IMG/VR virus record: IMGVR_UViG_3300009157_000021
Span: 1-64,000 of that record
Reading direction: 5' to 3' (one strand)
Length of the DNA stretch: 64,000 nt
Origin: a virus
The notes under the pieces were generated by a model. The model saw only the letters and a program-made list of their open reading frames with translations. It did no database searches and was not told the origin of the DNA. Made by a program: the position numbers and the translations under genes. Positions 21,551 to 64,000 of this stretch are shown here, one piece after another (the first letter of the stretch is position 1; every line of letters begins with the position of its first letter).

Positions 21551-21551
21551 G

Positions 21552-39319: not shown

Positions 39320-39790
39320 TTATCGTGAATGACGCCTCCCACCTTCCTGATAGGGACTGCTCTTGGACAACCGGCCGAGCTTTATCAGGATCTCGGCTAC
39401 CTTATCGACCACTGATTCCAGCTCCTCGTCCTCCTGGTCCATATTGAGATGAGCGATGACCGGGTAATCACGATGCCATTGGTTAATTGCCGTATCGAGC
39501 GCCACAAGCATACCACCTAGGTCGCGACCGCCCATCGCGGCCGTAACCTCACGAAGCCTCTTCCTGTAGTCCTCGATGATCATCTTATCTTCACGGCGGG
39601 TCTTAACGGGCCCCTTATCGTACCAGTGGAGGTAGTCGACGTAATACTCCTGCATCATGTGCAGGGCCGTGAACACGTCCTCAGGACTTGGATCGATGTC
39701 CCGCTCAACGTCGTGGTAAACTCTATATAGAGCGTTGACGCCGGCCGCATCCTCATTGACGTGCAGAAGCTTACCAAGCAGTTCGTTCAT
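39320..39790 (-). CDS. Hypothetical protein with predicted capsid-targeting leader
   Basis: 156 residues. The first 13 residues MNELLGKLLHVNE match the leader of other proteins in the head region ([LFV]-rich amphipathic helix ending in VNE). The mature part is helical and charged (VFTALHMMQEYYVDYLHWYD, EDYRKRLREVTAAMGGRDLG, DKVAEILIKLGRLSKSS). Possibly packaged in the capsid, or a neck/tail-assembly helper whose N-terminus is similar by chance. Confidence 0.6.
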   Translation of the reverse strand: MNELLGKLLHVNEDAAGVNALYRVYHDVERDIDPSPEDVFTALHMMQEYYVDYLHWYDKGPVKTRREDKMIIEDYRKRLREVTAAMGGRDLGGMLVALDTAINQWHRDYPVIAHLNMDQEDEELESVVDKVAEILIKLGRLSKSSPYQEGGRRHSR

Positions 39791-42112: not shown

Positions 42113-42490
42113 TCAACCCGGCACCAGGTACTCCATTATGATCTCAGCTTCCTGAATCTGACCGTCCTTGGTCGCTACAATGCTGACACTCTGCGGAGCA
42201 TACCGATGACCGGCGACCCACGAGACAGACGCATCGGACAAATGCATCTGAATGGTAATTGGTGCCTTCTCGCCAGCGATCTGGAACTCGATCTCGGTGT
42301 TGCCAAACAGCATCAGATCAACGTCCTTCACGCCCCAATCGCGGCTCTCGAAGTTCAACTCGTACTCGATTACCACGTCGCTGACGCTCTCGATCTCAAC
42401 GCCCTCCACATGCAGATCAACATCCACCTTGGCCCGGTAATGCTTGTCGGACTCGTTTACCGCACGCAGCCTATTGAGTAGGTCTTCCAT
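42113..42490 (-). CDS. Hypothetical protein with predicted capsid-targeting leader
   Basis: 125 residues from ATG 42490 (GTG 42493 possible). Leader MEDLLNRLRAVNE fits the [LF]-rich helix ending in VNE shared by head-region proteins. The mature part is all beta: HYRAKVDVDLHVEGVEIESV, VIEYELNFESRDWGVKDVDL, APITIQMHLSDASVSWVAG. Possibly an internal head protein. Function unknown. Confidence 0.6.
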   Translation of the reverse strand: MEDLLNRLRAVNESDKHYRAKVDVDLHVEGVEIESVSDVVIEYELNFESRDWGVKDVDLMLFGNTEIEFQIAGEKAPITIQMHLSDASVSWVAGHRYAPQSVSIVATKDGQIQEAEIIMEYLVPG

Positions 42491-45154: not shown

Positions 45155-45158
45155 CTGA

Positions 45159-46209: not shown

Positions 46210-47416
46210 GTTCTGGCTCCTGCGAATCCGACATCATGGACTTCAACTGATCGAAAAAGTCCGGGTGAAACTTACCACCCACCGGGTAAATGACGTTCTT
46301 CTTCCTCTTTATAAAGCGACCGAACTCTTCCTCGATTCTGTCAACGAGCTCGTCATCACCAACGTACATCGACTGAGTCGGGTCATAGATGAAATCGACC
46401 TTGGCTTCGAATACCAAATCGATACCCTGGAAGGTGACCTCAACCCGAGTACCGTACAAGTAATCATACTTACTCATACCAGCAAACTGACCAAGGGGCC
46501 GACCCTCCTGCATAGCGGCTATCACCATTTCGAGACTGCCGCGGTCATCACCGTGTTCCCGCAGAATATCACCATAAAGCTTCTGGGCGTCCTTCTGCTG
46601 CCGCTCGACCTTAATAGCGACCCGCTGCGTTCGCGGACGGCCCTCACCGAACGTTGATTGGAAAGAGCGAACCGCGTCTGCGGTGACCTGGAACTCATCT
46701 CGATTCATGAGCTTTACCATCTGCTGCTTGAGTTCCTTACGCAGACGGCTCAGATCCTCCTCAACGGCCTCCTTCACCCCGATCACCGGCGTCCTCTTTT
46801 TTCTCCTACGACCACGACCACGACCACGACCGATTTCAGTCGGCAATGCCGCGATATCGTTCTCGGTAGTCATTCCATCAGCAGCCGGTGCCGGACCACC
46901 GGATGGTGCTGCACCATCCTCCTTCAACTTCTTCTCCTCGATATTTCCGTACCTGATGATGTAGTCAATATGTTCCGGGGACTTGATTAGCCCAAAATGG
47001 GATTTTTCATCCTCCCCCCAGCTATTGCTAATCATACGCTTCATATTCAGTTTGGTCGCAATTTTCGTTATCTGTTCTATCTGGGTATAGTTTGGCATCA
47101 CGTTCCACTGGATTGCCAACTCACCATTATCATCGTTCGCATAACCACGAACCGCACCAGAGTCCATTAAATCACCATGGTTAGTACCGGCCAACCTAGC
47201 GGTCCAGCCATGATCATATTCCACCCAGATGACGGTGCCATCGGTTAGAACCCAGAACTTATAATATTCCTCACCGCCGTAGTTGGATCTGATCATCGAC
47301 ATCGATTGGCCGTATTTATTGATCATCTTCTGTTCATGCCCGGCCAACGTAGCGACTTCCTCGTTTACCGGGCGGATCCTATCGGTCAATCTAGTCGCGA
47401 GATCGTAAAAGTTCAC
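46181..47416 (-). CDS. Repeat-domain protein with leader (one copy), predicted internal head protein
   Basis: 411 residues from GTG 47416 (GTGA overlap). Leader MNFYDLATRLTDRIRPVNE ends in VNE. Then one copy of the shared ~130-residue domain: MINKYGQSMSMIRSN, FWVLTDGTVIWVEYDH, LMDSGAVRGYANDDNGELAI, YTQIEQITKIATKLNMK, IDYIIRYGN. Next a probable cleavage tag KKLKE, a Gly/Ala/Pro linker, an Arg-rich tract GRGRGRGRRRKKRTP and a coiled segment. The C-terminal part has MSKYDYLYGTRVEVTFQGID. Paralogous in part to 47413 and 60914. No known domain recognised. Confidence 0.72.
   Translation of the reverse strand: MNFYDLATRLTDRIRPVNEEVATLAGHEQKMINKYGQSMSMIRSNYGGEEYYKFWVLTDGTVIWVEYDHGWTARLAGTNHGDLMDSGAVRGYANDDNGELAIQWNVMPNYTQIEQITKIATKLNMKRMISNSWGEDEKSHFGLIKSPEHIDYIIRYGNIEEKKLKEDGAAPSGGPAPAADGMTTENDIAALPTEIGRGRGRGRRRKKRTPVIGVKEAVEEDLSRLRKELKQQMVKLMNRDEFQVTADAVRSFQSTFGEGRPRTQRVAIKVERQQKDAQKLYGDILREHGDDRGSLEMVIAAMQEGRPLGQFAGMSKYDYLYGTRVEVTFQGIDLVFEAKVDFIYDPTQSMYVGDDELVDRIEEEFGRFIKRKKNVIYPVGGKFHPDFFDQLKSMMSDSQEPEHEKQSEEIA
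46808..46832 (-). repeat. Six-base tandem repeat encoding Gly-Arg run
   Basis: About four copies of CGACCA/TGGTCG in a coding region translate to GRGRGRG in the protein 46181. Such tracts can expand and contract; here they make a basic, AT-hook-like or RGG-like stretch. Confidence 0.7.
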
Positions 47417-49179
47417 TGGCGACTCTCCAGGAAATCATCTTCGGATGGCCGCTTCCTGCTAAAGAAATCGGCAACACCCTTCATTATCTGCTCAGGGTCA
47501 CCATCACCATCAAAATCGTCACCGGTTGCCGTGGATCCGTTCTCAACCTCAACTGATTCAATATCGTTTGCCATTATCAGCTTGATGAGCCAGGCCGTCT
47601 GCTCCAGACTCGGCTTGCGTATGCCACACAGATCAATCCGCCCAGACGGTGCATCAACCTGTACGGTGAACGCTCCAGTCCTTCTCAGCGCCTGAACGCT
47701 CATATTCACATCCTTAGCCGCGGCTTCGAACGTGACTACCGACACCGCGGTGCCGTCAGTGAACAGCCAATACGACTCCTCATCGAGCTCGTCAGTCCAC
47801 TCTCCATACTGAGCTACCATCTGTTCCTGGTTCACGGTCTCGTACCGGCGTGCGGTACGAAATGACCTTGCCGGTTGGCGGTCCGAGCCCTTATCCGGTC
47901 TCGGTACCTCTTTGATCTCTTTGATCTCTTCGTGCAATCGCGACTCATTCTCCGGAACATCTTCCGGTGTATTTCCCATGTCTTCCGGCTGCGTCTGATC
48001 GGTAGGCTTGGTTTCAGGCTCTTCCCACCCCGGCTTGCGTCGGGAAGGTCTCCGGCGACGTTTTTCGTCGTCCGGCTTCTCAACGTTCGATTTACGTCTG
48101 CTCAGAGCACCGGCAGCCTTCTGCAGCCACCCGAAATCTCGCATTGCTTCCTTCTGGTAACCAGCGATGTCACGAGCGTACACATCACGGAGCCACTTCG
48201 CAATGGTCCCCGTGTAGAATGGGAGCGCCTTCAATACGTTCTGATAGTGCTTGCACACGGCACCGTACTGCTTCGGGTTACGGTGCCTCGGCGGTCTATT
48301 CTCGGGGTCCGTGTACTTAGCGTCATACTTAGGTCTGCCAAGAATGTACGACGAACCATAGTACAGAAACGCCGGGCATGAACAGAATACCTGAACGTTG
48401 ACCTTCTCGATGAACGCGGCTGCGAGCTTACGCAGATCAACCCTCGATCTATCCTCAACCCAAAGCCTACGATCCTTAACGAGACGCTCAAGCTGATCCT
48501 GTATGTCCTTGAAATGCAACGTGCAATCGTACCATACATCTTTCTTGGTGCCGCTGTGAACCTCAAAGTGCCAGTTGTCGTCGTCCATATCCTTCAAACG
48601 AACGCCACCCATCAACTGAACGTTCTTGACGCGGTCATCAAAGGTAGGAAAGAGCATCGACACCGAACGCTGCTTTCGGTGAATGTCACCAAGGGTAGCC
48701 TCTTCCACCGGACCGTACCGAAGGATATGTTCTACTTCATCCGGAGACCTGACGTTGACCTCGTATCCGTTATCCTTCTCACTCCACGTATCATCGACAA
48801 TCAAGAGCCTAATAGTGTGCTTAGCGGACATTCGCTTCAACACACCGATCTGATTATCGGTCAGTTTCTTCCACATTTCGACCGCGAGTAGACTAATTCC
48901 GCGATAATCAGTGACAACCTGACCACGGACGGCACCGGATTTAAGCAGATTCCTAACGTCTACATCGGCGTGATTGGATGTATCGGAGTGTTCCCATGCG
49001 ACCAGAATGATACTTCCATCGTTCATTACCCAGAACTTCTGGTCGACAAAACGATTAGGCCATTTATCAGTCTGATCCCCAAACTTACCGAGCATTTTGA
49101 CCTGTTCCTCAGGCATTGAAACAGCGGGTGCTTCCACTTCTCGTATCCGGAACACACGATCAACAAGCTCATTGAACAC
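47413..49179 (-). CDS. Repeat-domain protein with leader (two copies), predicted internal head protein
   Basis: 588 residues from GTG 49179 (AAGGA eight bases upstream). Leader MFNELVDRVFRIRE. N-terminal copy of the shared domain: MLGKFGDQTDKWPN, FWVMNDGSIILVAWEHSDTS, LLKSGAVRGQVVTDYRGISL, LTDNQIGVLKRMSAKHTIRL, VEHILRYGP. The centre has FDDRVKNVQLMGGVRLKDMD, CSCPAFLYYGSSYILGRPKY, CKHYQNVLKALPFYTG (SWIM-like Cys/His: CxCPAF...CKH). A second, diverged domain copy lies near the C-terminus (YWLFTDGTAVSVVTFEA, LRRTGAFTVQ). The SWIM-like zinc element suggests DNA or protein binding. Shares ends with two overlapping neighbours. Confidence 0.74.
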   Translation of the reverse strand: MFNELVDRVFRIREVEAPAVSMPEEQVKMLGKFGDQTDKWPNRFVDQKFWVMNDGSIILVAWEHSDTSNHADVDVRNLLKSGAVRGQVVTDYRGISLLAVEMWKKLTDNQIGVLKRMSAKHTIRLLIVDDTWSEKDNGYEVNVRSPDEVEHILRYGPVEEATLGDIHRKQRSVSMLFPTFDDRVKNVQLMGGVRLKDMDDDNWHFEVHSGTKKDVWYDCTLHFKDIQDQLERLVKDRRLWVEDRSRVDLRKLAAAFIEKVNVQVFCSCPAFLYYGSSYILGRPKYDAKYTDPENRPPRHRNPKQYGAVCKHYQNVLKALPFYTGTIAKWLRDVYARDIAGYQKEAMRDFGWLQKAAGALSRRKSNVEKPDDEKRRRRPSRRKPGWEEPETKPTDQTQPEDMGNTPEDVPENESRLHEEIKEIKEVPRPDKGSDRQPARSFRTARRYETVNQEQMVAQYGEWTDELDEESYWLFTDGTAVSVVTFEAAAKDVNMSVQALRRTGAFTVQVDAPSGRIDLCGIRKPSLEQTAWLIKLIMANDIESVEVENGSTATGDDFDGDGDPEQIMKGVADFFSRKRPSEDDFLESRQ

Positions 49180-50609: not shown

Positions 50610-52130
50610 TTAGGCGGTCGTTCCGAGAGCGGTGATGGTCCCTTGGCAGAAGAGACCGTTGTTGATGACCTTGAACCCGGCGCTCGACAGGAAGCCCTTC
50701 TGAGCGATCAGGTCACTGGTCACCAGCGTCGGGCTCGCGAACAGCGGGATGTACGGAGCGTAGATGAAGCTCGCGTACAGGTAGCTGTCGCCCTTGTAAC
50801 CGAGCGTGTACGTGTTCGAATCCATGAACGGGTTCTGGATCACGACCATGTTGTTGACGCTGGTCACATTGCCGATGTTCAGCGGACCGGTGGGGAGCTG
50901 TTTGCCGAGTGCAGCACTCGCCTTGAAATCCCCGCCCTGGGTGAGCTGCTTCACGACTCGGGCAACGTTGTTGCCACAGATCATGAAGTTCGCAACACCA
51001 CGCTTGGTCTTATCGTAGATGTTGTTCGAGCCCTCGTTCAGACGATCGAGGAACTCGTACTTGTGCCACAGCCAAGCCTGCCCACTGTGAATGGCGGCAT
51101 TCCACTGGGTGGGGGCGGTGGCAGCACCGCTCGCAGAGGACGCGGCAATCATCATATCCAGACCCTTCTGGTCGATGGACCACTTCACCAAGCCGCCAAG
51201 GATCTTAACGAGCTCATCCTCGAGGCTCAGGCCGTGGGCCTTCTGCAGATCGATCTGGGCACCGATGCTGTACTTCGAACGGACCGGGAAATCGATGGCG
51301 GTCACCGTTTCCTGGGTGACGGTCAGATCGACCTCGGGAACGCCATTCTTGTTCCCATTGGCGTCGACCGGCAGATCGTACTGGTAGTAGTACGTCAGCA
51401 ACACGTCATCGGTGCTGTCCAGCCCGCTGACCGTGATGCTGTAGGTGCCGGCCGCATTGATCGTACCGCTGACCGTGATCCCATCACCAACCACGTCGGC
51501 GAGAACACCAGCGCTGGAGCAGGTCGCGATCACGGCGTAAACGCCAGCCGCGGTCTTCTTCTCGACGATGACATCGGCGAGCAGAATCAAACCGGGGTTG
51601 ATGGCGGTCGTACCACTGTGCGTGTCGTTACCGGTACCGACGTCCTCACGCTCGGAGGCCGCCATCGCGTACCGACGAGCACCCTTCTTGGAGTTCGGAC
51701 CGGTCTTGGAACTGAACAGCGTCTCGGCCGCAGCCACGTCGCCCTTCGCCCCACCGGCCTGGAAGTCCATGAAGAACACCGCACCCACACGCCGATCGAG
51801 CGCTTGCACGGTGGCAACGTCGTTCAGCGTCAGGGACGGCAGCAACGCCGAGATCACGGGCAACTGAATGCCAAGGAAGCTGATGTGATCCTCGGTCGTG
51901 GTGTTCTCGAACAGCCGCTGCCCTTGCCGAATCCCGCCCTCCATGATGGCGTTGTCGAGGCACTGGGCGATGTTCCGCTTCTCCATCAGCGTCATCTCGC
52001 GGTTCTGCATCTTCCGGATGTACTGATTCACCTCTTCGAGATACGGCTTGATGGCCGCCTTCTCGCAAAGGAAATCCCGTCTCTGCTCCAACAGGAGCAT
52101 TTCTTGTCTGATTGCTTCGTTAAGATCCAT
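50610..52130 (-). CDS. Major capsid protein (gp23-like)
   Basis: 506 residues from ATG 52130. The frame is open further upstream, but that part overlaps the protease-scaffold gene. DLNEAIRQEMLLLEQRRDFL is a helical N-terminal segment; QNREMTLMEKRNIAQCLDNA, IMEGGIRQGQRLFENTTTED and IQLPVISALLPSLTLNDVAT precede the core; FPVRSKYSIGAQIDLQKAHG, SLEDELVKILGGLVKWSIDQ and KGFLSSAGFKVINNGLFCQG are typical of T4-type HK97-fold capsids. An inserted beta domain (VVGDGITVSGTINAAGTYSI) lies near residue 255. Downstream terminator. If maturation follows T4, the N-terminus is cut by the protease encoded just before. Confidence 0.92.
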   Translation of the reverse strand: MDLNEAIRQEMLLLEQRRDFLCEKAAIKPYLEEVNQYIRKMQNREMTLMEKRNIAQCLDNAIMEGGIRQGQRLFENTTTEDHISFLGIQLPVISALLPSLTLNDVATVQALDRRVGAVFFMDFQAGGAKGDVAAAETLFSSKTGPNSKKGARRYAMAASEREDVGTGNDTHSGTTAINPGLILLADVIVEKKTAAGVYAVIATCSSAGVLADVVGDGITVSGTINAAGTYSITVSGLDSTDDVLLTYYYQYDLPVDANGNKNGVPEVDLTVTQETVTAIDFPVRSKYSIGAQIDLQKAHGLSLEDELVKILGGLVKWSIDQKGLDMMIAASSASGAATAPTQWNAAIHSGQAWLWHKYEFLDRLNEGSNNIYDKTKRGVANFMICGNNVARVVKQLTQGGDFKASAALGKQLPTGPLNIGNVTSVNNMVVIQNPFMDSNTYTLGYKGDSYLYASFIYAPYIPLFASPTLVTSDLIAQKGFLSSAGFKVINNGLFCQGTITALGTTA

Positions 52131-52137
52131 GATCTCT

Positions 52138-54171
52138 TTACCCCATTTGCATGCCTGTAAAGGCATTTCCAATTCTCTTTCGTACGTCTTCGCTACCCGT
52201 CTTTGCCTCGCGGACCGTGACTTCCTTCGGGGCGTTGGAATGGAGTGCATTCTTCCGCATGGATTCACGCGTGTCTTCGAGGACTTCGTCGACTTCTGCA
52301 ATCGTCTTACAGCCTTCGAGAAGTGCCCGAACGTTGTCGTGGACTGATTTGAAGCCCTTGAGCTTCCGCTCCGCGTACTCCATGATGACCGTACGCGTTG
52401 CATCGGCTTGTGCTTTCTTCACTTGTTCATCGAGAGCTTTCTTTCCATCCTTTTCTACGCCCTCGATCTTTTGTTTGTTCTCTTTGAGGATCCGTTCCTT
52501 ACCCACAGTCAGTTCCACGACCTTCTCGGTCAGGGTCTTGATATGGGTGGCGGCCTCTTCGAGCTTCTTGGTCGCATTGGCGGCAGCGGCGGCCCGCTCT
52601 TCGAGCTTCGCACGCAGGGCGGTAACCTCGGCACCCTCGACCTTCTTGGCCTCCTGCAGCTTTCGCATGACGACCTTCAACTGCAGACCGGTGTCACCCG
52701 CGATGTCGACCGCCTCGGCGAGCCTGTCGCGTTCGGCCATCAACGTCGCGTTCTCGATACGCAGCTTGTTCATCTCCTTCAGCGTAGCGCTGGCGGTCTT
52801 CGTCTTCTTTTCGTTGGGAACCTTCTCGGTCGCGGGCTGTGCCCACTGATGTTCGAGGTTCATGAACTCGACCACGGCCTCAACCGTCTCGGGCTCGTTG
52901 GCACTGATCACTGTAGCCGGACCATCGTCGCCCGACACGACATTGACCGAGAACAGTTTGCCGTCGGCCACGCCGACCCACGTCATTTGCGAGTCGGTCT
53001 TGTCGCCGGTCTTGTCGCCATCGGGATAGGTGGGCTCGCCCAGAATCTTGCGGATGGCTTCGAGCTTCCCACCGGTCAAACGCTTGTTGACGCTGAGATT
53101 GGTGGCGTCACGAACCTCAGCTTGATCGGCCTGGAGGATCTCAACCTCCTCGCTGATCTTGCGACGGCCCGCTGTCTTCTTGTTCTCGCCAACTTCATCC
53201 TCGTCCTCGTCCGGCTCGTCGACCTCGGCTTCGGGCTTCGGCTCTTCCGGCACGACCTCGTCGGCCTCGGCTTCCAGTCGATCCGGCGTAGCGAACTCCG
53301 GCGTCCCGGCGACCGGCTGCGGGGTCGGCGGTTGTGTACTGATGGTCACAACGACCGGCGTCTGATTCACGGTGGGATCGGTACTTGCCGGGGTGACGCC
53401 AACGTTGTTCACGTCACCATTGACTTCCGCGGTCTTCGCGTTGGGGTCGGCGATAATCGTCATCGTCGCCTCCTTGATGGCCTTGCAGCAGCCGCACTGT
53501 TCGCACTTGCCGTGCTTCTCATCCTTGCTGTGCTTGCACAACATCGATTCGAGAACGGCACCGGCGAACTGCTTGTCGCCCTTGGTGGCCTTCTCGCAAA
53601 GAGCGGCGGTCTTGATGCTCTCGACCACATTCCGCTTGACCTCGATCGGCATGGTGCCAAACGTCGAGGGGTCGGCGGTGAAGTCGGTCGTGATGTACTT
53701 GTACTTCTCGGCCACCACCCGATGGAACTTCTTCTTGGTGTCCGGATCGACCTCTTCGGTCAGTTCGCCCTCGGCACGGGTCGAGACGCCGACGCCGCAC
53801 TCGGCACGAATCAGACAGTCGACGATCCGCCCGGTCGGGGTGTCGAGCACGTCGAACACCTGGTAGACCGTGTCGGTGTCCTTGTCGACCACCCACTCGC
53901 AAATGACGTGGGAGACGAGCTCCAGGTTGGACTGGGACGTTGTGGGATGCTCGGCATGGCCGAACAACGCACGCTTCGCGATCTGCTCGGACAGGGTCTT
54001 ATCGCCGGTGACCTTCTCGACCACGTCCCAACCGTACTTGCGGTTGTTGGCGTTGAGCTTGTTGACGTTGCAGACGGGCTCCTTCACCCGGCACAGAACG
54101 CCAGAGGGCAGCTTCGTCCGATCGGACTCAACAATCTTCGCCTCGCCGATAATTCTTTCCAATAACAACAT
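52138..54171 (-). CDS. Prohead protease (gp21/S80-like) fused to a scaffold-like coiled coil
   Basis: 677 residues. The protease domain (about 1-200) shows NKLNANNRKYGWDVVEKV, FGHAEHPTT with catalytic His near 72-75, and CGVGVSTRAEG with catalytic Ser130, the T4 prohead protease layout. A Pro/Glu-rich linker (VPEEPKPEAEVDEPDEDEDE) and a small domain (GGKLEAIRKILGEPTYPDGD, VFSVNVVSGDDG-like) follow. From about 470 to 620 a long coiled coil (LRIENATLMAERDRLAEAVD, ALRAKLEERAAAAANATKKL) and a helical tail resemble a scaffold such as gp22. The N-terminus MLLLERIIGEAKIVE may itself be a cleavage leader. Lies directly upstream of the capsid gene. Confidence 0.88.
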   Translation of the reverse strand: MLLLERIIGEAKIVESDRTKLPSGVLCRVKEPVCNVNKLNANNRKYGWDVVEKVTGDKTLSEQIAKRALFGHAEHPTTSQSNLELVSHVICEWVVDKDTDTVYQVFDVLDTPTGRIVDCLIRAECGVGVSTRAEGELTEEVDPDTKKKFHRVVAEKYKYITTDFTADPSTFGTMPIEVKRNVVESIKTAALCEKATKGDKQFAGAVLESMLCKHSKDEKHGKCEQCGCCKAIKEATMTIIADPNAKTAEVNGDVNNVGVTPASTDPTVNQTPVVVTISTQPPTPQPVAGTPEFATPDRLEAEADEVVPEEPKPEAEVDEPDEDEDEVGENKKTAGRRKISEEVEILQADQAEVRDATNLSVNKRLTGGKLEAIRKILGEPTYPDGDKTGDKTDSQMTWVGVADGKLFSVNVVSGDDGPATVISANEPETVEAVVEFMNLEHQWAQPATEKVPNEKKTKTASATLKEMNKLRIENATLMAERDRLAEAVDIAGDTGLQLKVVMRKLQEAKKVEGAEVTALRAKLEERAAAAANATKKLEEAATHIKTLTEKVVELTVGKERILKENKQKIEGVEKDGKKALDEQVKKAQADATRTVIMEYAERKLKGFKSVHDNVRALLEGCKTIAEVDEVLEDTRESMRKNALHSNAPKEVTVREAKTGSEDVRKRIGNAFTGMQMG

Positions 54172-57100: not shown

Positions 57101-57234
57101 ATGGCACCATCCTGTGTCTGGGCCCGTTCGACGATCCTGCCATTGTGTTTGATGACCCACGGATTGTCCTTCGGATCAAGACCCGCAAGACGATCCCTAT
57201 TATCCATCATGTAGTTAATGAAATCGTTATTCAT
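54184..57234 (-). CDS. Large acidic modular protein with processing-like linkers (possible prohead core protein)
   Basis: 1016 residues. N-terminal NPWVIKHNGRIVERAQTQDG is DUF5678-like. Several small domains follow (VVNLYKMYRMTPDPIDELLG, KKIAERCSARKVVMLKETHD, ALWDGILKAIEDKDSKWEAV, FEVAQVDDGSDDVVIDINGQ), divided by acidic low-complexity linkers. Linkers repeatedly contain DEGKVPDDADPEDKKIAKLTE-type or ESKVNE, GEHKLTE, ESKRLPE tags, which end in [IVL]xE like gp21 sites. The C-terminus is Lys-rich (KKNMFKKGQKGKKAAKVKES). In T4 the core holds internal and scaffold proteins; a comparable role is plausible. No enzymatic motif seen. Confidence 0.72.
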   Translation of the reverse strand: MNNDFINYMMDNRDRLAGLDPKDNPWVIKHNGRIVERAQTQDGAMQKLTRIQPHSIWEATRKDGYEIVNEPVKEGLEQDASDAFDNRQDEMEIHVTELLRKSRPDEEIVKTLAADWELDEKEAARVLATAKQRINKETADHGLASPIESKTVTGVLNLLKKIREGVIKSFWVVTTPTKESTIDDICFEATPAQLAMQAHGGLNAADIEAVYDNEKEARIHADGLLKGRTADEGKVPDDADPEDKKIAKLTEDFDPANSIVVNLYKMYRMTPDPIDELLGGETSVSMGKGPNEFVIIADKKEYTVRVEVSGAKWSVVVDGPDNKIADDLKRYIDRDVALIAPEIIGEHKLTEDGRDPEDKIGDDVKPDEEGPDIDRPRDPANPAPAEGEEQQKDTITKEYIGKKEETHFYMVGTPSSTPTEEEGADTPEDLQIVDQEGKKLWSASEQEIDPSNPADFLIQAIQELEIDEITRSVLVKYILPELTREDEETEPEEIADEEPTEDADTAAGKPDEALPTGEEEERRPFERKSKTGSKKIAERCSARKVVMLKETHDEALWDGILKAIEDKDSKWEAVVTLMAEVWNGGFEQWIDNGIAEEEGHLAIRMLHKIGTEAAEKMAALAEEAMRSDFYGMAVTDRNIKNQSEEEFEHNAEQLDPLDNEFYGGLDDQLVKDLAAKLGVGKTDEAKIPDDADPEDTKINKLIETKVQMGDDTFEVAQVDDGSDDVVIDINGQEYRFEKDFAAMWRDEATGDLTSDGLQELALDALSNMEEDEYAQLVAAGDKRDDWDRDRDEERAARDRKSDQDYDSREEDRLARAHADESKVNEKGAACTKKEKRQVKHIEKSEKAAGKPAKKAEQVAHATVNKQKNEAKEDDAFEVALNGISEQVPTDDIIDELDKRFGLSEDDAKNVVRRALKSYIHSVRSQLIKDGDLTADEIDANLEDEIRELEDLDRESGNMGADVGEAKKKLPDAFKKNMFKKGQKGKKAAKVKESKRLPERKVTSGIDLLKGLLGMGQ
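55126..55190 (-). repeat. Dispersed coding repeat: DEAKIPDDADPEDTKINKL
   Basis: One of three near-identical ~65-70 base segments (others at 56484-56555 and 43141-43212) that encode the linker DE[AG]K[IV]PDDADPED[TK]KI. They sit at module borders of the proteins 54184 and 42719 and may have spread by recombination or duplication. Confidence 0.75.
56484..56555 (-). repeat. Dispersed coding repeat: DEGKVPDDADPEDKKIAKL
   Basis: Second copy in the 54184 protein. It is followed by TEDFD and a new domain. A reduced version GEHKLTEDGRDPEDKIGDD lies near 56150-56205. Confidence 0.75.
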
Positions 57235-57246
57235 AATCCTTTGTCC

Positions 57247-57576
57247 TTAGAAACCGAACACGTCGCCCTTGGTCTCTGTCCATTGCTTCTCTACATCATC
57301 GGTATCGGCCGGGACATCCCCAGCCCGAACGTAAACGATGATGTCGTAGGTGCCAGCCGGCAAATCCCCAAAGATCGTCACCGGGAAGGTGCCGGTGGAA
57401 CCGACTTCCACCAAAACGCAGGCCGAATCGAGCCAGTCAACGCCGAGCTCCATGGCCTTGGTTCTGTAGTTCCATATCTTGCTGTCGCGGTTGCCGACGA
57501 TCCGGTAGTAATACTGGTTCGCCGTGTGACCATGCGAATCGAACACATTCTGACTGACGTAATCCGTTGTCACCAT
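57247..57576 (-). CDS. Hypothetical beta-rich protein
   Basis: 109 residues from ATG 57576. TTDYVSQNVFDSHGHTANQY, YYRIVGNRDSKIWNYRTKAM and TFPVTIFGDLPAGTYDIIVY. A beta-sandwich-like domain, perhaps a small virion component. The end (ADTDDVEKQWTETKGDVFGF) is polar. No family recognised. Confidence 0.65.
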   Translation of the reverse strand: MVTTDYVSQNVFDSHGHTANQYYYRIVGNRDSKIWNYRTKAMELGVDWLDSACVLVEVGSTGTFPVTIFGDLPAGTYDIIVYVRAGDVPADTDDVEKQWTETKGDVFGF

Positions 57577-57577
57577 G

Positions 57578-57796
57578 TTAGAACCCCTTGAAGACCCCAC
57601 TCTTGATGGCCAGCAACACGAGACTCGTCACGAACCCCAGGGCAGCCGTGAACGCGGCACTGAGCGCCGTGATCGTGAACATCCAGTGATGGTGAAGGTG
57701 GTTGCTGAACTGCTTCTCCAGGCCATCCTGCTTGACGTTGAGCTCGATCAAAAGATCGTGGTCGCTCATGCTGTCATACTTGTCATTATGTGCCAT
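57578..57796 (-). CDS. Small membrane-anchored protein, XhlA-like
   Basis: 72 residues from ATG 57796. A polar, helical N-terminus (SDHDLLIELNVKQDGLEKQF) runs into one hydrophobic segment (MFTITALSAAFTAALGFVTS) with a short cytoplasmic tail. This layout resembles XhlA-type proteins associated with host membrane and lysis in other phages. Overlaps the gene before it. Confidence 0.6.
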   Translation of the reverse strand: MAHNDKYDSMSDHDLLIELNVKQDGLEKQFSNHLHHHWMFTITALSAAFTAALGFVTSLVLLAIKSGVFKGF

Positions 57797-58064
57797 GACT
57801 CTCCCCACCTTCCTGTGCCTGATTCGACTTGATGATGTTCACGAGCTTTACCATGTCGCGTCGGCATGCCTCAAGGTCGAACATCGTGTAAACCGCGTTG
57901 AATCTCAGTATGTCCATCATCTCATCGAGATTGCTGAGGTTCATGCCGGTCACGTCGACCTCTTCCTTATTGTACGCACGACCGAGCTCCGGTTGCATGA
58001 TAGCAATGACATCACATATCTTCCAGAAGAGATCGGTCATCTGTTTTTGCTCTGCTTTTGTCAT
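57786..58064 (-). CDS. Small helical hypothetical protein
   Basis: 92 residues. TKAEQKQMTDLFWKICDVIA, EVDVTGMNLSNLDEMMDILR, MFDLEACRRDMVKLVNIIKS. All helical. ATGA overlap with the gene before it and an overlap with the membrane protein after it. Unknown. Confidence 0.65.
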   Translation of the reverse strand: MTKAEQKQMTDLFWKICDVIAIMQPELGRAYNKEEVDVTGMNLSNLDEMMDILRFNAVYTMFDLEACRRDMVKLVNIIKSNQAQEGGESHGT

Positions 58065-58348
58065 GGGTTGATCAGCTTATCACCCGTAGCTCTTCGTCCG
58101 TCGCGTCGAATTTCCAAGTGCTGAATCGTTGTCAGCAATCCGTTCTCGTGGAACGTCACGAGGTAAGTGCCCTCTTTGACGAACCGCAATTCAAGGCAGA
58201 AAAGCCCGTCATCCAAACGCCGGGGATCATCCGCATCGTGAACCGACATGTCCGGCCAGGTAACGCGGGCGGTCGGGTTAACATCAACCCGACCACCGAC
58301 GGTCCTGTAGAACAATCGAACGATTCCTGGCGAGTAGAAGTCTGCCAC
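58061..58348 (-). CDS. Small beta-rich hypothetical protein
   Basis: 95 residues. ADFYSPGIVRLFYRTVGGRV, DVNPTARVTWPDMSVHDADD, YLVTFHENGLLTTIQHLEIR. Ig-like strands. It follows the VDGKV-repeat protein with a tiny gap, so the two may be parts of one structure. Unknown. Confidence 0.65.
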   Translation of the reverse strand: MADFYSPGIVRLFYRTVGGRVDVNPTARVTWPDMSVHDADDPRRLDDGLFCLELRFVKEGTYLVTFHENGLLTTIQHLEIRRDGRRATGDKLINP

Positions 58349-58351
58349 ATT

Positions 58352-58900
58352 TTACGACACCATCGCGGGGGTGTCGAGCCCACCGACCTGTGCACCAATG
58401 TTGTTCACGGCGGTCAAAATCGCGTCGGCCTTGCCGTCCACCGCGGTGACCTTGCCATCGACCGTGGTCACCTTGCCGTCAACGCCCACGACCGCGACAC
58501 CAACCGCGGTCACGTTCGAGTTGACGCCATCAACCTTCCCGTCGACCGTGGTCACCTTACCATCGACGGTGCCGACGGCGGTGTTGACACCATCAACGGC
58601 GGTACCCACCGTATTGAGGTTGTGATTGCCGACGGAGTAGCGCTTGATGACCTTGCCGTTGCCATCGGCCTTGTGCACGATGACGAGCCACTCACCGGTG
58701 ACGTTCGGCGTGAACTGGCCCTTGTAGGTGCCGGTGTTCAAAACCTCACCCATCGCCACGTCCGGGAAGTTCTCCGTATTCTTGACGCCGGTCGGCAGGA
58801 AAATCTCGGCGATCACTCCAGCCAGACCACTCTCCGCATTCGGTGCCTGATAAACGATCGGCAACGCATCACCGACTTTGAACTGTGCCTCACCAGCCAT
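58352..58900 (-). CDS. Beta-domain protein with VDGKV repeat stalk
   Basis: 182 residues. The N-terminal 90 residues form a beta domain (SGLAGVIAEIFLPTGVKNTE, TGTYKGQFTPNVTGEWLVIV). From about 95 come repeated units T[VA]DGKV[TD] (VGTVDGKVTTVDGKVDGVNS, VDGKVTTVDGKVTAVDGKAD), a heptad-like pattern that likely trimerises into a fibre or spike stalk. Probably a virion surface or internal fibre; the partner is unknown. Confidence 0.7.
   Translation of the reverse strand: MAGEAQFKVGDALPIVYQAPNAESGLAGVIAEIFLPTGVKNTENFPDVAMGEVLNTGTYKGQFTPNVTGEWLVIVHKADGNGKVIKRYSVGNHNLNTVGTAVDGVNTAVGTVDGKVTTVDGKVDGVNSNVTAVGVAVVGVDGKVTTVDGKVTAVDGKADAILTAVNNIGAQVGGLDTPAMVS
58430..58620 (-). repeat. Tandem degenerate repeats encoding VDGKV units
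   Basis: About eight imperfect 21-24 base units coding for V-D-G-K-V-T-T/A or V-D-G-V-N. Bases at third positions differ, so selection is likely acting on the protein repeat. Confidence 0.75.
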
Positions 58901-58935
58901 TGGCTTCTCCTCTTCTATGTCGATTTCGACTTCAT

Positions 58936-59130
58936 TCAGCTCGTTCTCGGTTCGGAGACCTTGCCGTTGAGCATGTCTATCTTATGTTCCAGCTCCAAAA
59001 GCTTCGCCCAAATCTGCTGCAGACCGTGTTCCGGATGCTTGACCTCATCCTTGACTCCTTTTATGCCACCGTGCTCGCCCAGCATCAGAAACCCGGATTC
59101 GTCGGAAAGAACCTCGAATCCATCAGACAC
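58936..59130 (-). CDS. Small hypothetical protein with coiled coil
   Basis: 64 residues. SDGFEVLSDESGFLMLGEHG precedes a short amphipathic helix (GLQQIWAKLLELEHKIDMLN). Unknown role; lies in a run of small head-region genes. The frame has good coding character and short intergenic gaps. Confidence 0.6.
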   Translation of the reverse strand: MSDGFEVLSDESGFLMLGEHGGIKGVKDEVKHPEHGLQQIWAKLLELEHKIDMLNGKVSEPRTS

Positions 59131-59144
59131 GTGGCACCGCGATC

Positions 59145-59525
59145 TTACAAGGAGTAGATCCTATTACCCATCTTTTCAAAGATGACCGGGACGAGAATGC
59201 CGTATTCGCGGCGACCCTGTTTCATCTCGATCAGAACGTGAGTGAGCAGGCTGGACAGACCCATCATTGCAACGATCGAATCGTCCGCAGCCTTACCCTC
59301 TCTGATGGCCTTGAGCGTCTTCTCAACGCTCTTGCCCTTGAGTTTCTCTATCAACTTGTCGAGTAGCCGCTCCGCGGTGGGCAGCTTCTTCAATTCGGTC
59401 AACGTAGCATCGGCCAGACCGGCGGACCAGTGCTTCTTGGCTGCCTCACAAACCGTCTTGTATTCGGGACCGGTGAAGTATCGCTCGGCCGCAGCCAGCA
59501 AACGGAGAACTTCGTCGTGTATCAC
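59145..59525 (-). CDS. Helical hypothetical protein
   Basis: 126 residues, ATGA-coupled to the protease gene before it. HDEVLRLLAAAERYFTGPEY, KTVCEAAKKHWSAGLADATL, AERLLDKLIEKLKGKSVEKT, ending VPVIFEKMGNRIYSL. Could be a regulator or partner of the HtrA-like protease, given the coupling. No family recognised. Confidence 0.65.
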   Translation of the reverse strand: MIHDEVLRLLAAAERYFTGPEYKTVCEAAKKHWSAGLADATLTELKKLPTAERLLDKLIEKLKGKSVEKTLKAIREGKAADDSIVAMMGLSSLLTHVLIEMKQGRREYGILVPVIFEKMGNRIYSL

Positions 59526-60295
59526 TGGTTCACCTGCTCAATCAAACCGGGGAGAACCTCGATGATCCGATCTACGCCGACCACGAACCCAATACCGGAG
59601 TTTAAATACGCAGCAAACGCCATTCCGATCACCCGGCCGGAGCGATCAAACACCGGACACCCAGAGTTGCCGGGATTGATGGAAGCATCAACCTGAATCG
59701 TACCAAATTGCGGGTCGAACTCGTACATTCTACTGATAATACCGGCGGAAACCGACCACGACAAACCGTACGGGCACCCGATAGCCCACGCGGCATCGCC
59801 GACCTTCAAACCGCCAGGGGTCACAAAGTCAACTACAAACGGAGTATCGGCATCAACCTTCACTACAGCAAGCTCCGAGCTCGGATCACCAGCCCACGAA
59901 ACGATCAATGATACCACCCCATCATTGAATTTAACGACCGCGGACACCCCGGGGTCATCAAGCTTCGTGACGATGTGCTTCGCGGTAAGAATGACCCCGT
60001 CACCAACTATCATACCGGTACCGCCGTACGACACTGGCTTTCCGGTCCTCAGGTCTATTGTGTTATTCTCCGTAACGGTGATGTTCACCACGCTCTTGCA
60101 CGCCACGGTAAGCATGCCCGTGGGTGGCATGACGTAGCTGGCCAGACCGCAAAAGTTGGCACCAAGCATCGAATCGTACGCGTCGTTTTGTGCTACCCGG
60201 TTCTGCAGATCATAAACCACATTGCCAAGGTAAGCGGAGTTCAGTGCCATTACGGCGAACAGCACACCAATCAGGATTCTTGTTACCTTACTCAT
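59522..60295 (-). CDS. Membrane-anchored HtrA/DegP-like serine protease
   Basis: 257 residues from ATG 60295. One N-terminal membrane helix (VTRILIGVLFAVMALNSAYL). Trypsin-like domain: GGTGMIVGDGVILTAKHIVT (His107), GDPSSELAVVKV where DegP has Asp (here Glu141), and DASINPGNSGCPVFDRSG (Ser211; Cys instead of the second Gly). No PDZ domain. DegP cleaves misfolded envelope proteins. A phage copy might cut host envelope or incoming proteins, or its own. The Asp-to-Glu change could lower activity. Starts in an ATGA overlap with the ATA-start gene. Confidence 0.85.
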   Translation of the reverse strand: MSKVTRILIGVLFAVMALNSAYLGNVVYDLQNRVAQNDAYDSMLGANFCGLASYVMPPTGMLTVACKSVVNITVTENNTIDLRTGKPVSYGGTGMIVGDGVILTAKHIVTKLDDPGVSAVVKFNDGVVSLIVSWAGDPSSELAVVKVDADTPFVVDFVTPGGLKVGDAAWAIGCPYGLSWSVSAGIISRMYEFDPQFGTIQVDASINPGNSGCPVFDRSGRVIGMAFAAYLNSGIGFVVGVDRIIEVLPGLIEQVNQ

Positions 60296-60489
60296 TTCGT
60301 TCCCGCCCTTCGATTGACCGACGTATGTGTGGGCTCCTTGCCGGGAACACGACATCCTTCGATTTCATCAATGTTGTAATAGGTCTTGCCACCATCCCGC
60401 GAGAAGCAGGCTGGCGACCGGGCCGAGGCAGCGAGTCGCTCTTGGATTGATTTGCGTCTTTGCAAGTTGTCGAGGAGATCATCAAATAT
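60292..60489 (-). CDS. Short leader-bearing protein, apparent ATA start
   Basis: 65 residues if ATA 60489 initiates. No ATG, GTG or TTG precedes the conserved start region; an in-frame TTG lies later at 60465. GGAAAAGG lies five bases before the ATA, and the next gene starts in an ATGA overlap with this stop. The N-terminus IFDDLLDNLQRRKSIQE aligns with the leader of the 60914 protein (MFDELFDRLRQRITE), placing ATA exactly where Met sits there. The rest reads RLAASARSPACFSRDGGKTY, then NIDEIEGCRVPGKEPTHT. A strong hairpin lies upstream. Too short to show up as a normal start-to-stop gene. Confidence 0.62.
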   Translation of the reverse strand: MFDDLLDNLQRRKSIQERLAASARSPACFSRDGGKTYYNIDEIEGCRVPGKEPTHTSVNRRAGTK

Positions 60490-60500
60490 CGTAACCTTTT

Positions 60501-60538
60501 CCGGGGTGGGCCGGTTTCAACGCACCGGCCCCACCCGG
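60501..60538 (-). other. Strong GC-rich hairpin before the ATA-start gene
   Basis: CCGGGTGGGGCCGGT and ACCGGCCCACCCCGG pair almost completely around an eight-base loop. It follows a tiny gene and is followed directly by GGAAAAGG, not by T's, so it may control translation or RNA processing, or be a weak terminator. Confidence 0.7.
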
Positions 60539-60557
60539 ATGCACGAACGACGGACCC

Positions 60558-60674
60558 TTACAGTTTGATGTTCTCAGTCTTCGTCACGACCTTGCCGTAG
60601 AGGATCTTGAGCAGCGGCAGGACGCCCTTGAGGAAGACCACGCCGGTAGCCACACCCGCGAGATACGTAACCAT
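60558..60674 (-). CDS. 38-residue membrane peptide
   Basis: ATG 60674 follows AAGGAG five bases away. VTYLAGVATGVVFLKGVLPL then LKILYGKVVTKTENIKL: one hydrophobic helix with a basic tail. Too short for most gene callers, but the ribosome site and its position between a stop and a hairpin support it. It may be a small holin-like or membrane regulator. Confidence 0.7.
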   Translation of the reverse strand: MVTYLAGVATGVVFLKGVLPLLKILYGKVVTKTENIKL

Positions 60675-60721
60675 GACTTGCTCCTTACTCGACCAGTCGA
60701 TAAAATGGAACACTTCACCCA

Positions 60722-60728
60722 CATAAAA
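60722..60728 (-). promoter_or_regulatory. Gap motif TTTTATG with TGGGTGAAG
   Basis: In the 63-base gap between two tiny genes the - strand reads CTCTTTTTATGTGGGTGAAG, then CATTTTATCG. See the similar site at 39297. Candidate late promoter. Confidence 0.3.
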
Positions 60729-60737
60729 AGAGACGGC

Positions 60738-60899
60738 TCAGGATTTATCGATCCGGCCTTTTCTGCTCTGTTCTATGAGTTCCGTGTCGAGTTCATCCAC
60801 GAAATCGAGGATGCCCTCCTTGTCCGGGTCATCCGGTGCCGCCTTTGTGTAAAGACGACCGAGCATTGCCTTTAGTTCACGAATTGCTCTCTCATTCAT
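60738..60899 (-). CDS. 53-residue acidic helical protein
   Basis: ATG 60899 after GAGGG. NERAIRELKAMLGRLYTKAA, PDDPDKEGILDFVDELDTEL, then IEQSRKGRIDKS. Helical. Follows the large repeat-domain gene with a 14-base gap. Unknown, but well supported by ribosome site and spacing. Confidence 0.65.
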   Translation of the reverse strand: MNERAIRELKAMLGRLYTKAAPDDPDKEGILDFVDELDTELIEQSRKGRIDKS

Positions 60900-60913
60900 A
60901 TTCCCTCGACTAT

Positions 60914-62884
60914 CTAGGGATTTGTTTCATTCGCCGAGACCTCTGACTCGACCGGTTCACCAATCAGATCGTTACTGGTCAAGAACGAACGGAGCGAGTT
61001 GAGATCACGACCGGTGTCCGTGTGGTGATCACCGAACCCATCGTAATCCCAATAGAATTCCTCGCCGTTTCTTGATACACTTGCTATGGTCCTAAACTGG
61101 GCCTCGGTCGGCGGAATGTTGATCTCGACGCTCATTGACCCGTTGACGGCCGTGTACCACCTAATGTAACTGGTCTCCTTGATGAACTGCTTGTACTTCT
61201 CGCGGGTGGATGGAGGCTTGTCCGGGTCCATCTTTCCGTTGTCTATCAACCATCGAATGGCGTATACCGGGTGCTGCATCGACGGTTCCTCAAATGTCAA
61301 CAGGCTACCATCGGGTCGGATGAACCCGGCCTCACCCGGAGCAACGGCCTCACGAATCGATTCGGCCATTGCCATTTCCTCGCCGTAGCGAAGAACGGCC
61401 TCCAGTCTCTCGGCCGAGTCGATGCCCGCACCCTTCCTGTTGTTGGCGTACAACCTGCTGGCACCGTATTTCTTGTACAACCGGACGGCGGCGTCGATCT
61501 GCTCGTCGGTGATCTTATCGTCCCAGTACAGGTCCATCTCACCCCTGTTTGGAGCAAACTTGCCCTCGACGGCACCGGTGTCGTAGAAAGCCACTTGTGT
61601 GGCGGCGTGCTTGGGGTTGTGATAGTGGTCCTCATCCTCGGAGAACAGAGGACCGGGAACGAGGTTCCTACCAACGATCGTTCCGCGATGCGACTTCTCG
61701 ACCGGGATCACGCTGCCGTCATTCAGAATCAGGAACTTGAGCCAGTGCTCCTCACCGGACCACGTGCTTGGTGCCAAATCGAGACTGGGCCTGACCCGTT
61801 GCTTCAATTCGGCCTGTACCGGCGGGAGGCTTTCGCAGATTCGTTTGTGAGATCGGCGCTCGCTCATCGCCATCTCTTTGCCGTAACGAAGAATCGCATC
61901 GAGCCTCTCAATCGAGTCGATACGGCTTTCGACGAAATCACCGTCAACGTCAACGTACACGTTATCGCACTCGTACTCCCTGAACAGCTTCTTGAGCTTC
62001 GCGATCTGGGGCTCGGTCAGCTTACCGGCCGAGTTCCCAATGAGAATTGCTTCGTCGGGGATGATGGATAGACGGAACGCACCGCTGGTCATCATCTCCT
62101 CGAACGCGATGGCGGGCAGATTCAGGTCCTCGGCCTCTTCATCGTCCTCTGCTTCGAGCTTGAGGATCTCTGCGGGGACATCCGCATGAACGTAGTCAAC
62201 TGGTATAACCGACCCGTCATTGAGCACCCACCCCTTGCAGCGGTTCTCCTCACCCTCGAAGTTGTTGTACGCGAGATCGTCACTGACCTTGAACGTGTCC
62301 TTTACCTTTTGCTGCAGATCGGGCAGGCTGGCGCTCTTCTCTTTCAGGTGCAGCAGGTGGTCGTGCAGATCCATCTGAAAGCCCTCTGCCGTCGCGTGCT
62401 GCAGCATTTCAGGCCCGTACTCAAGGACCGCGGCGACCCGGTCGATGCTGATTTCCGCACCGTTAACGCGGTCACCGTCTGCATCGAGCGTCAGGTAACG
62501 ACAACGGTGTTCCTTCCACAGACGCAAAACTGTTCGAATCTGGGCGGGCTTTAGCTTGTTCTCATACCACAGGTCCATTTCGCGTGATTGAACGTCGATC
62601 TTGCCCTGGATACCACCGGTGTCCATGAATTCATTAACCAAGAAACCATCGTTTGGCTCCATCGGACCTTTGTGACCGGATATTGTATCCATGTGACTAT
62701 TATCAACCGTGATTACCGTGCCATCAAGCAGCACCAGGAACTTGTACCATTCTTCCTCACCGGACCAGGTGCTCGCAACCAAACCAGTAGACTCGCCATA
62801 CTTATCCTTGATGGCCTGGTGAACCGGGGGCAGGGCGGCCTCGGTGATGCGTTGACGCAGACGATCGAACAATTCATCAAACAT
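60914..62884 (-). CDS. Repeat-domain protein with leader (four copies), predicted internal head polyprotein
   Basis: 656 residues from ATG 62884 (GAGAGG upstream). Leader MFDELFDRLRQRITE. Copies of the shared ~130-residue domain at about 22-165, 188-343, 355-508 and, diverged, 519-640. Repeating features: an ALPPVHQAIKDKYG-type start, SGEEEWYKFLVLLDGTVITV, a [DS]-rich loop, TGGIQGKIDVQSREMDLWYE, LKPAQIRTVLRLWKEH, then SIDRVAAVLEYG. The module ahead of copy 3 repeats the leader style (SHKRICE before SLPPVQ), as does AESIRE before copy 4, suggesting a polyprotein cut after [IV]xE. Not matched to any known domain. Confidence 0.76.
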   Translation of the reverse strand: MFDELFDRLRQRITEAALPPVHQAIKDKYGESTGLVASTWSGEEEWYKFLVLLDGTVITVDNSHMDTISGHKGPMEPNDGFLVNEFMDTGGIQGKIDVQSREMDLWYENKLKPAQIRTVLRLWKEHRCRYLTLDADGDRVNGAEISIDRVAAVLEYGPEMLQHATAEGFQMDLHDHLLHLKEKSASLPDLQQKVKDTFKVSDDLAYNNFEGEENRCKGWVLNDGSVIPVDYVHADVPAEILKLEAEDDEEAEDLNLPAIAFEEMMTSGAFRLSIIPDEAILIGNSAGKLTEPQIAKLKKLFREYECDNVYVDVDGDFVESRIDSIERLDAILRYGKEMAMSERRSHKRICESLPPVQAELKQRVRPSLDLAPSTWSGEEHWLKFLILNDGSVIPVEKSHRGTIVGRNLVPGPLFSEDEDHYHNPKHAATQVAFYDTGAVEGKFAPNRGEMDLYWDDKITDEQIDAAVRLYKKYGASRLYANNRKGAGIDSAERLEAVLRYGEEMAMAESIREAVAPGEAGFIRPDGSLLTFEEPSMQHPVYAIRWLIDNGKMDPDKPPSTREKYKQFIKETSYIRWYTAVNGSMSVEINIPPTEAQFRTIASVSRNGEEFYWDYDGFGDHHTDTGRDLNSLRSFLTSNDLIGEPVESEVSANETNP

Positions 62885-62890
62885 AACCAA

Positions 62891-62969
62891 TTACCTCTCG
62901 TTGAGGTCGTACGGAATCAGACCGACCGACGTTTGGATACCGTTGACTTGACCCCATTCCGGCGGCAGA
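62891..62969 (-). other. Protein-like tail in +1 frame after the 62970 stop
   Basis: Reading one base on at AAA TGA gives DLPPEWGQVNGIQTSVGLIP then YDLNER before a stop at 62891. Codon use resembles nearby genes (many CCG, GGT, GTC, AAC). No ATG, GTG or TTG with a ribosome site opens this frame. A programmed +1 shift, a sequence error or a remnant are all possible. Confidence 0.45.
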
Positions 62970-63275
62970 TCATTTGGGTTCCTTATCTCGCGGAGCCCGG
63001 CAACGGTCGCACCACGTGTGGATACCTTTTGCTTGGCATTCGCCAGAGCAGTAATCCGTCGGACCAAATTCCTCAGAGATGTAAACCTCATGAGGAACCC
63101 AGTGCACACATGGCGTGCCATCAGGGTAATCACACGCACCGGCCTCGTAGAAGTGACACCGCACCCACATTGTTGGGTCGTCGGGGCCGTGGCCGTGAAC
63201 CTGTTTCTGTACTCGCTGTTCATTTGCTTTTCTCTGTCGCTTTCGTTCCCTTTTTCGTCGTGCCCTTGCGGACAT
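62970..63275 (-). CDS. Cys-rich protein, possibly frameshifted at its end
   Basis: 101 residues from ATG 63275 (GGAGA six bases upstream). Basic N-terminus (SARARRKRERKRQRKANEQR), then a Cys/His module CHFYEAGACDYPDGTPCVHW, EFGPTDYCSGECQAKGIHTW and CDRCRAPRDKEPK. It stops at AAA-TGA, where the +1 frame continues for 26 more protein-like codons to 62891. Zinc binding is likely. It lies between the acetyltransferase-like gene and the repeat-domain gene. Confidence 0.65.
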   Translation of the reverse strand: MSARARRKRERKRQRKANEQRVQKQVHGHGPDDPTMWVRCHFYEAGACDYPDGTPCVHWVPHEVYISEEFGPTDYCSGECQAKGIHTWCDRCRAPRDKEPK

Positions 63276-63301
63276 GATGCGTCTCCGACGATAGGTTACC
63301 T

Positions 63302-64000
63302 TTACAACACCTTCTTCCAGAAACACCCACGCTTGGATCGATGGTACTCCTCGAACCCGGCGCTCTTGAACATTCGCACGGATTCATCGTTGCCGAACTC
63401 TATGAACCCAGACAACGATTTCGCACCCTTTAGCTTGACGTGCTCGATGACGAACAGCAACAGTTCCGACCCGTAACCGCTCCCCTTCGGGTTGGCCTCG
63501 ATCCAGTGAATATACGCGTCGTCGCCCTTGTACTCGATGGTAGCCCTGGCCACACTTCGGTGCCCGCTATTTTCATAACCGACAAAGAACGTCCTTTCCG
63601 GACGTTCGTCGACCGTGACGGTCAAGCGACCCCCATTGATGCTCTCCTTCAACTGATTCAACCTCACCCAACCGCCATCGGTCAGAACCTCAAGCAGATC
63701 CGCGTCGACCGGCTTCGTCATGTAGAAATCACCAGTCGACTCCTCCTTCATGTTTGGCACTGATGTCTTCGCGACCCGCACAACGACAGCCTGCGGCCTG
63801 CTGAAATCCACGGTGCCAGCCTCGGAATCGGACCAGTAGGACCGGCGCTGGGTAGATCCATCGGGCCACGTTTGTTGGGGCTCGTCGGTCCAGACCTCGG
63901 AGTCCTGCGGTCGGCCCACAATCAGCTCACCGTCGGCGATGATATCGTACAGTGAGTCCCGGGTCGTCGTGTGATAGAAGTAGTCACCGGCCTCACCACC
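63302..64000 (-). CDS. GNAT-like acetyltransferase with possible ART-like N-terminus (5' part outside window)
   Basis: The frame is open to the right edge; the visible part is about 232 residues. The C-terminal ~90 (ATIEYKGDDAYIHWIEANPK, GSGYGSELLLFVIEHVKLKG, NDESVRMFKSAGFEEYHRSK) is a GNAT-type fold with the GSGYG acetyl-CoA loop and a NDESVRMFKSAGFEE-like end. The N-terminal FYHTTTRDSLYDIIADGELI resembles the first strand-helix of ADP-ribosyltransferase or Tpt1-like folds (HxTxxxxLxxIxxxG), which is tentative. DGGWVRLNQLKESI may be a diverged piece of the repeat domain. Such combinations occur in injected phage effector proteins. Confidence 0.7.
   Translation of the reverse strand, partial: GGEAGDYFYHTTTRDSLYDIIADGELIVGRPQDSEVWTDEPQQTWPDGSTQRRSYWSDSEAGTVDFSRPQAVVVRVAKTSVPNMKEESTGDFYMTKPVDADLLEVLTDGGWVRLNQLKESINGGRLTVTVDERPERTFFVGYENSGHRSVARATIEYKGDDAYIHWIEANPKGSGYGSELLLFVIEHVKLKGAKSLSGFIEFGNDESVRMFKSAGFEEYHRSKRGCFWKKVL

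Follow-up and report, generated by a model that had tools for sequence, protein, structure and literature searches.

A possible truncated Tad3 gene with a capsid-type tag and ATA at the initiator position in a virus with T4-type head genes

The window, i.e., the whole stretch of DNA that was analysed, covers positions 1 to 64,000 of a virus record with a length of 68,301 bases. The candidate gene (60292..60489, minus strand) consists of 65 codons beginning with ATA (60489) and followed by TGA; it combines a capsid-type tag with a C-terminal tail of Tad3. The first-pass annotation had given these positions correctly, but without the strand: the feature is on the minus strand, and the plus-strand bases contain a stop. 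Read as minus (60489-60292), the frame runs from ATA to TGA with 65 residues and without a stop, as had been proposed. Nine sense codons separate the preceding in-frame stop from ATA, and ATG, GTG and TTG are absent among them. The same annotation had held that none of these codons occurs before the conserved part, which is true from the preceding stop to ATA but not beyond, where TTG 60465, codon 9, is the first canonical start and opens an ORF of 57 aa. Since this ORF includes the whole conserved C-terminal part, a canonical start exists before that part. The candidate frame was the best-scoring of the six, with a codon score of +3.0, which lies between the 1st (1.7) and the 5th (10.4) percentile of 222 coding windows. 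A start in another frame (TTG 60485 or ATG 60482) was rejected, the codon score being -14.5. The stop shares bases with the next ATG (ATGA, 60292-60295), again in agreement with the earlier description; this ATG belongs to a gene for a Trypsin_2 serine protease (59522..60295, minus) with an N-terminal hydrophobic segment, whose own ribosome site pairs with -8.3 kcal/mol.

Elsewhere in the window, inspection by eye showed HNH-type homing endonuclease-like ORFs (2188-2820, 8245-8814, 12348-13205, 41581-42075 and 45159-45950), with a cupin-like part attached to one of them, and a long run of glycosyltransferase-, nucleotide-sugar enzyme- and methyltransferase-like genes on the minus strand (7600-21600).

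The ATA codon (60487..60489, minus) stands at the initiator position as set by the register of the tag. At a distance of 5 bases from it the Shine-Dalgarno-like site GGAAAAGG (60495..60502, minus) is indeed present, as claimed in the first-pass annotation, though it is weak. Its pairing with the 16S tail amounts to -4.9 kcal/mol, compared with a median of -7.6 for 59 genes, whose energies were the best of several starts per gene, a bias favouring the genes; 43% of 1500 random sites equalled or exceeded the pairing of GGAAAAGG. The strong or extended Shine-Dalgarno pairing expected of a functional AUA start is not found at -4.9 kcal/mol. The ribosome site of one tagged gene of the same record, that starting at 42490, is also weak (-4.7 kcal/mol). 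Before TTG 60465 the pairing was -5.2 kcal/mol with the CCUCC core unused, and no Shine-Dalgarno site is present there. The strong hairpin that had been noticed just upstream of ATA is real; it extends over 40 bases (60500..60539, minus), separates the ATA gene from the short ORF that precedes it, and has no T run after it. The 44-nt fold at this position (-29.9 kcal/mol) was the strongest among the minus-strand windows of the whole record, taken at a step of 7, and the 131-nt hairpin region had a z value of -2.4. A rho-independent terminator was considered and rejected, as there is no T run and a terminator search there found none; a virus-borne tRNA reading ATA was likewise rejected, with 0 tRNA genes in the window.

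Read from ATA, the frame opens with the tag IFDDLLDNL (60463..60489, minus), whose ninth codon is TTG (60463-60465), the only early canonical start. The alignment with MFDELFDRL, the start of gene 60914-62884, on which the proposal of an ATA start had been built, proved to be real and better than chance. The tag family MFDELFDRL / MNELLDRL opens six other genes of the record. Five of these are on the minus strand and lie wholly or partly in the window: MFDELFDRLRQRITEA (60914..62884, tag at the start), MFNELVDRVFRIREVEA (47413..49179, GTG start), MEDLLNRLRAVNE (42113..42490) and MNELLGKLLHVNE (39320..39790), both with the tag pattern, and MNELLDRLLEAGRRK, of which 63302..64000 is the part in the window and which starts at record position 64672. 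The sixth, MNELIDRL, starts at record position 65537, beyond the window. In a six-frame pattern search of the whole record seven tag stretches were obtained, and each of the six besides the candidate opened a gene whose start codon is ATG or GTG. This pattern had been drafted after the candidate was seen and admits the candidate's letters; therefore, the test was repeated with profiles which left the candidate out. The candidate tag then ranked 8 of 109,890 7-mers and, with a profile from 10 other tags, 10 of 100,849 six-frame 10-mers, with a score of 13.6 bits, which falls inside the leave-one-out range of true tags (10-26 bits). Among 260 ORF N-termini from the record and its relatives, six outscored the 14.0 bits of the candidate, five being tags of this record, which are contained in the profile, and one being in L014. 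In the relative L013, one ORF, to be set beside gene 60914..62884, starts with MFELFDRLVRRIRE; tag-like starts are present in this relative, by eye also on a HAD-like protein (VNDLLDRL...VDLDGTLAYYD). A search by the exact DNA pattern of the tag gave nothing useful. The suggestion from MAFFT that the residues after ATA are an internal helix of Tad3 was rejected, since the helix profile gave 1.4-3.2 bits versus 13.6 bits for the tag.

Shortly after the tag follows IQE (60439..60447, minus), a motif of the form [LIV]xE which resembles the cleavage site of the T4 gp21 type. This form, widened from [LI]xE and picked after the tags had been seen, was present at residues 8-18 in 9 of the 10 other tags and in the candidate, versus 8 of 63 untagged genes (Fisher p about 2e-6). 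A prohead protease of the Peptidase_S77 or T4 gp21 type (52138..54171, minus) with a long C-terminal part matched PF03420 above the cut-off (E 8e-7) and PHROG 207, head maturation protease (E 2e-22); it is encoded just before the major capsid protein of the Gp23 family (50610..52160, minus; PF07068, E 1.4e-35). For T4, PMC9026906 puts the N-terminal signal that sends internal proteins to the prohead core at about ten residues and gives L/I-X-E as the motif after which gp21 cleaves. Because the record has both a capsid protein of the Gp23 family and a prohead protease of the S77 type, the tag probably serves as a T4-type propeptide for capsid targeting, judged by position and form. Short repeats, among them ESKVNE and DDADPEDKKI, were seen in the long head-region proteins 42719-45298 and 54184-57234; these are possibly further sites of the prohead protease. 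A tag of the kind that stands at gene starts, the cleavage-type motif after it and the register support a protein-coding part that begins at ATA, and on comparison of the sequences the N-terminus of the protein is very probably at 60489. Shared N-terminal tags could be a means of fixing true start codons in such viruses.

In the remainder of the predicted protein, sequence comparison identifies the final ~20-25 residues of a Tad3 domain, preceded by a short linker. Tad3 is an inhibitor of type I Thoeris (PF25185; solved chain 9b7d_B), and the candidate keeps the motif RxPxxFSxDGGKTYYxxDE, including the C-terminal FSxDGGKTYY, which represents invariant columns of the Tad3 alignment. The C-terminal motif of the family, RSPACFSRDGGKTYYNIDEI (60361..60420, minus; candidate residues 24-43), has 16/20 residues as in L031 and is 11-16/20 identical across 28 members. 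Four viral loci matched the candidate as query (tblastn E 3e-7 to 2e-5 within candidate stretches), and an alignment-based search yielded at least 27 Tad3 loci, these being confirmed from 80 pattern stretches, with the other 53 outside the count. Matches to PF25185 were obtained for L003 (E 2e-36), L005 (E 3e-32) and L004 (E 3e-11). The candidate alone scored 11.9 bits (E 0.2) against PF25185, below the curated cut-off of 27 bits, and E 0.004 against PHROG 14697; among PDB chains it matched none. The N-terminal part of Tad3 (HAxxEL, GHSGxSA, TDDPxEW) was absent by alignment, and the three patterns that were searched over the full record matched in none of its six frames; altogether five motif patterns, two of them applied at 57000-63500, brought up no other piece of Tad3. 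The full domain is kept in the 28 other aligned members, save 3 which are cut by contig ends. With no more of the domain than its end, the candidate derives from Tad3, yet it is below the curated threshold for a member of the family.

Two relatives from one sample (3300032516), L013 (portal, 73%) and L007 (capsid protein, 80%), end on either side of the candidate, and among the records searched no close relative spans it. A search for the candidate in related records gave 0/1 record and, separately, a match in 4/16; three of the latter were the Tad3 loci L002, L004 and L005, and one was weak (E 0.019) with a stop inside. In a further search 1/1 record matched, through the full-length Tad3 protein of the Borrarchaeum contig described below. 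No close relatives were gained with the protease, the 658-aa protein and the prohead protease as baits; comparison of the candidate with genome contigs gave 410 pattern-matching stretches, none of which was confirmed, and megablast against phages gave nothing useful. The portal of L013, the nearest relative by this protein (L013:9986-12241), contains an intein (Intein_splicing, E 1e-16, residues 229-364) inside Portal_T4; the portal of the window is without such an insert.

A contig filed under Candidatus Borrarchaeum weybense encodes a portal 56% identical to that of the window virus and, between the portal and protease genes, a 671-aa protein with a complete Tad3 domain at its end (E 5e-33). 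This 179 kb contig (L058, L059, L060, L061) has a T4-like portal, protease and Gp23 in an order similar to that of the window. Borrarchaeum is an Asgard archaeon; the contig would be a phage that was binned wrongly or else a virus of archaea. Family searches covered 24 records, namely 23 with a Tad3 locus and L013. Gp23 was found in 4/24, and in 4/4 of these, as read from coordinates, the Tad3 gene was in the head-gene region. In L045 a weak HAD-like match (E 0.0026, below the cut-off) was joined to Tad3. Scored as tags, the N-terminal extensions that the Tad3 proteins carry in these four records reached 1.1 (L045), 0.3 (L059), -0.9 (L036) and -0.6 bits (L033), the 95th percentile for 260 ORF starts being 4.0. 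A general rule of tagged Tad3 proteins is thus unsupported. By eye, long extensions were also noticed where the record has no Gp23 match, on at least 4 proteins of the Tad3 family (L032, L035, L041, L050). One of these, L050:547-2073, is a 509-aa frame with Tad3 (E 2e-31), a 2'-5' RNA ligase-like (2H) domain (E 5e-6) and DUF7701.

The reading which is tentatively preferred, with a confidence just short of even, is that of a truncated gene for a capsid-tagged Tad3 protein, in which ATG turned into ATA and which is poorly translated, if at all; a control device would not be involved. The candidate would then be a late gene in the head region of a T4-like virus. The propeptide for capsid targeting would take up its first ~17 residues and belong to the family seen in the six other genes, with the targeting role suggested by the head genes, and the common tag, recognised by sequence comparison, would place the initiator at ATA 60489. 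A larger tagged Tad3 protein may have been shortened by a deletion, and a single transition from ATG to ATA may have left translation weak or absent now. If it is translated, the protein would start with fMet, enter the prohead by way of its tag, be trimmed after IQE and be delivered with the DNA. Loss of the start is favoured over a controlled start because of the weak ribosome site, the adjoining hairpin, the poor codon score and the truncated domain. On the other hand, the 65 open codons and the kept ATGA overlap also suit a working gene, the tail of Tad3 is well kept (16/20 residues identical to L031), and the weak ribosome site is not disqualifying, as judged from the tagged gene at 42490 with -4.7 kcal/mol.

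Some weight, although the case is judged unlikely, should be given to a working small gene initiated at AUA, from which a tagged peptide against Thoeris would be made in low dose, with the hairpin possibly tuning its level. The intact frame, the tag, the cleavage-type motif and the ATGA overlap agree with it, and according to PMC13009471 AUA starts are real in infC, ccpN and citZ of Staphylococcus aureus; such starts can reach about 10-30% of AUG output (about 10% at the non-canonical sites that were assayed, and as much as 30% at ccpN). However, extended Shine-Dalgarno motifs were described there for the non-AUG starts of infC, cvfC1 and ccpN, while the site of the candidate is weak; its domain is truncated, its codon score is poor, and ATG or GTG is used in all six other tagged genes. 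The same letters are expected from loss of the start, from real initiation at AUA and from a base error. That the virus population has ATG, and that ATA came from an error in the base call or consensus or from a minor variant picked by the assembler, appears less likely still: one G-to-A change in this IMG/VR virus record would be enough, but consensus errors are rare in assembled metagenomes, and the truncation and the codon score need no error. Translation from TTG 60465 into 57 aa, with the tag-like stretch as an untranslated remnant, would employ the earliest canonical start, which is in frame with the tail of Tad3; it is regarded as improbable, since a Shine-Dalgarno site is missing, the pairing of -5.2 kcal/mol misses the CCUCC core, and a tag which matches through its ninth residue would be removed. 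Finally, the low codon score and the lack of significance of the candidate alone for Tad3 in Pfam could mean that there is no gene and that the open frame and both matches arose by chance, but this is hardly credible in view of two matches, independent of each other, which share one frame and have the order and register that would be expected, and of tblastn E values of 3e-7 to 2e-5.

Taken alone, the start codon is a curiosity; the genomic context matters more. In all four Gp23 records found to have Tad3, this Thoeris inhibitor domain is located among the head genes, and the tail in the window bears an apparent capsid address tag. A precedent is IPI of T4, an injected anti-defence protein (PMC3012670, PMC9026906), which means that proteins packaged in the head can be injected weapons against defence. 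It is conceivable, but considered quite improbable, that a family of T4-like viruses loads Tad3-type inhibitors and other cargo by an N-terminal tag and injects them with the DNA, blocking the TIR sensor before viral expression; the window would then contain the smallest form, a tag with a C-terminal Tad3 peptide, made in low dose from AUA. If Tad3 were such virion cargo, Thoeris would be neutralised at entry.

A comparison with known systems concerns the start codon as well as the protein. The candidate and the S. aureus genes infC and ccpN have AUA at the initiator in common, but the latter possess extended Shine-Dalgarno pairing and the candidate site is weak. The idea in the first-pass annotation of tight control as in infC could not be upheld, given this difference from infC and ccpN, the truncated domain and the poor codon score. 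A nearer model than the S. aureus starts is the rpoS start mutation of Escherichia coli, a spontaneous ATG>ATA change in the laboratory, for which PMC12864459 gives up to 5-fold less protein, a fifth or more being kept; the same source quotes Hecht 2017 for an ATA efficiency of at most 1%. Among the papers that a search on ATA/AUA start codons and phages brought up, titles and the openings of abstracts contained no phage gene with such a start. Unlike Tad3 (about 115 residues), the candidate has only the last ~20-25 residues, with the tag in place of the N-terminus. A parallel is found in IPI, IPII and IPIII of T4, which have a capsid-targeting sequence and are cut by gp21, and where a short common N-terminal peptide on diverse proteins is followed by an aliphatic-x-E site; PMC3012670 describes the internal proteins of T-even phages as diverse defence proteins with only the targeting sequence in common. 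The candidate, too, has a common N-terminal peptide and a protease-type site, IQE, and the window virus, like T4, has a Gp23 capsid protein and a gp21-type protease.
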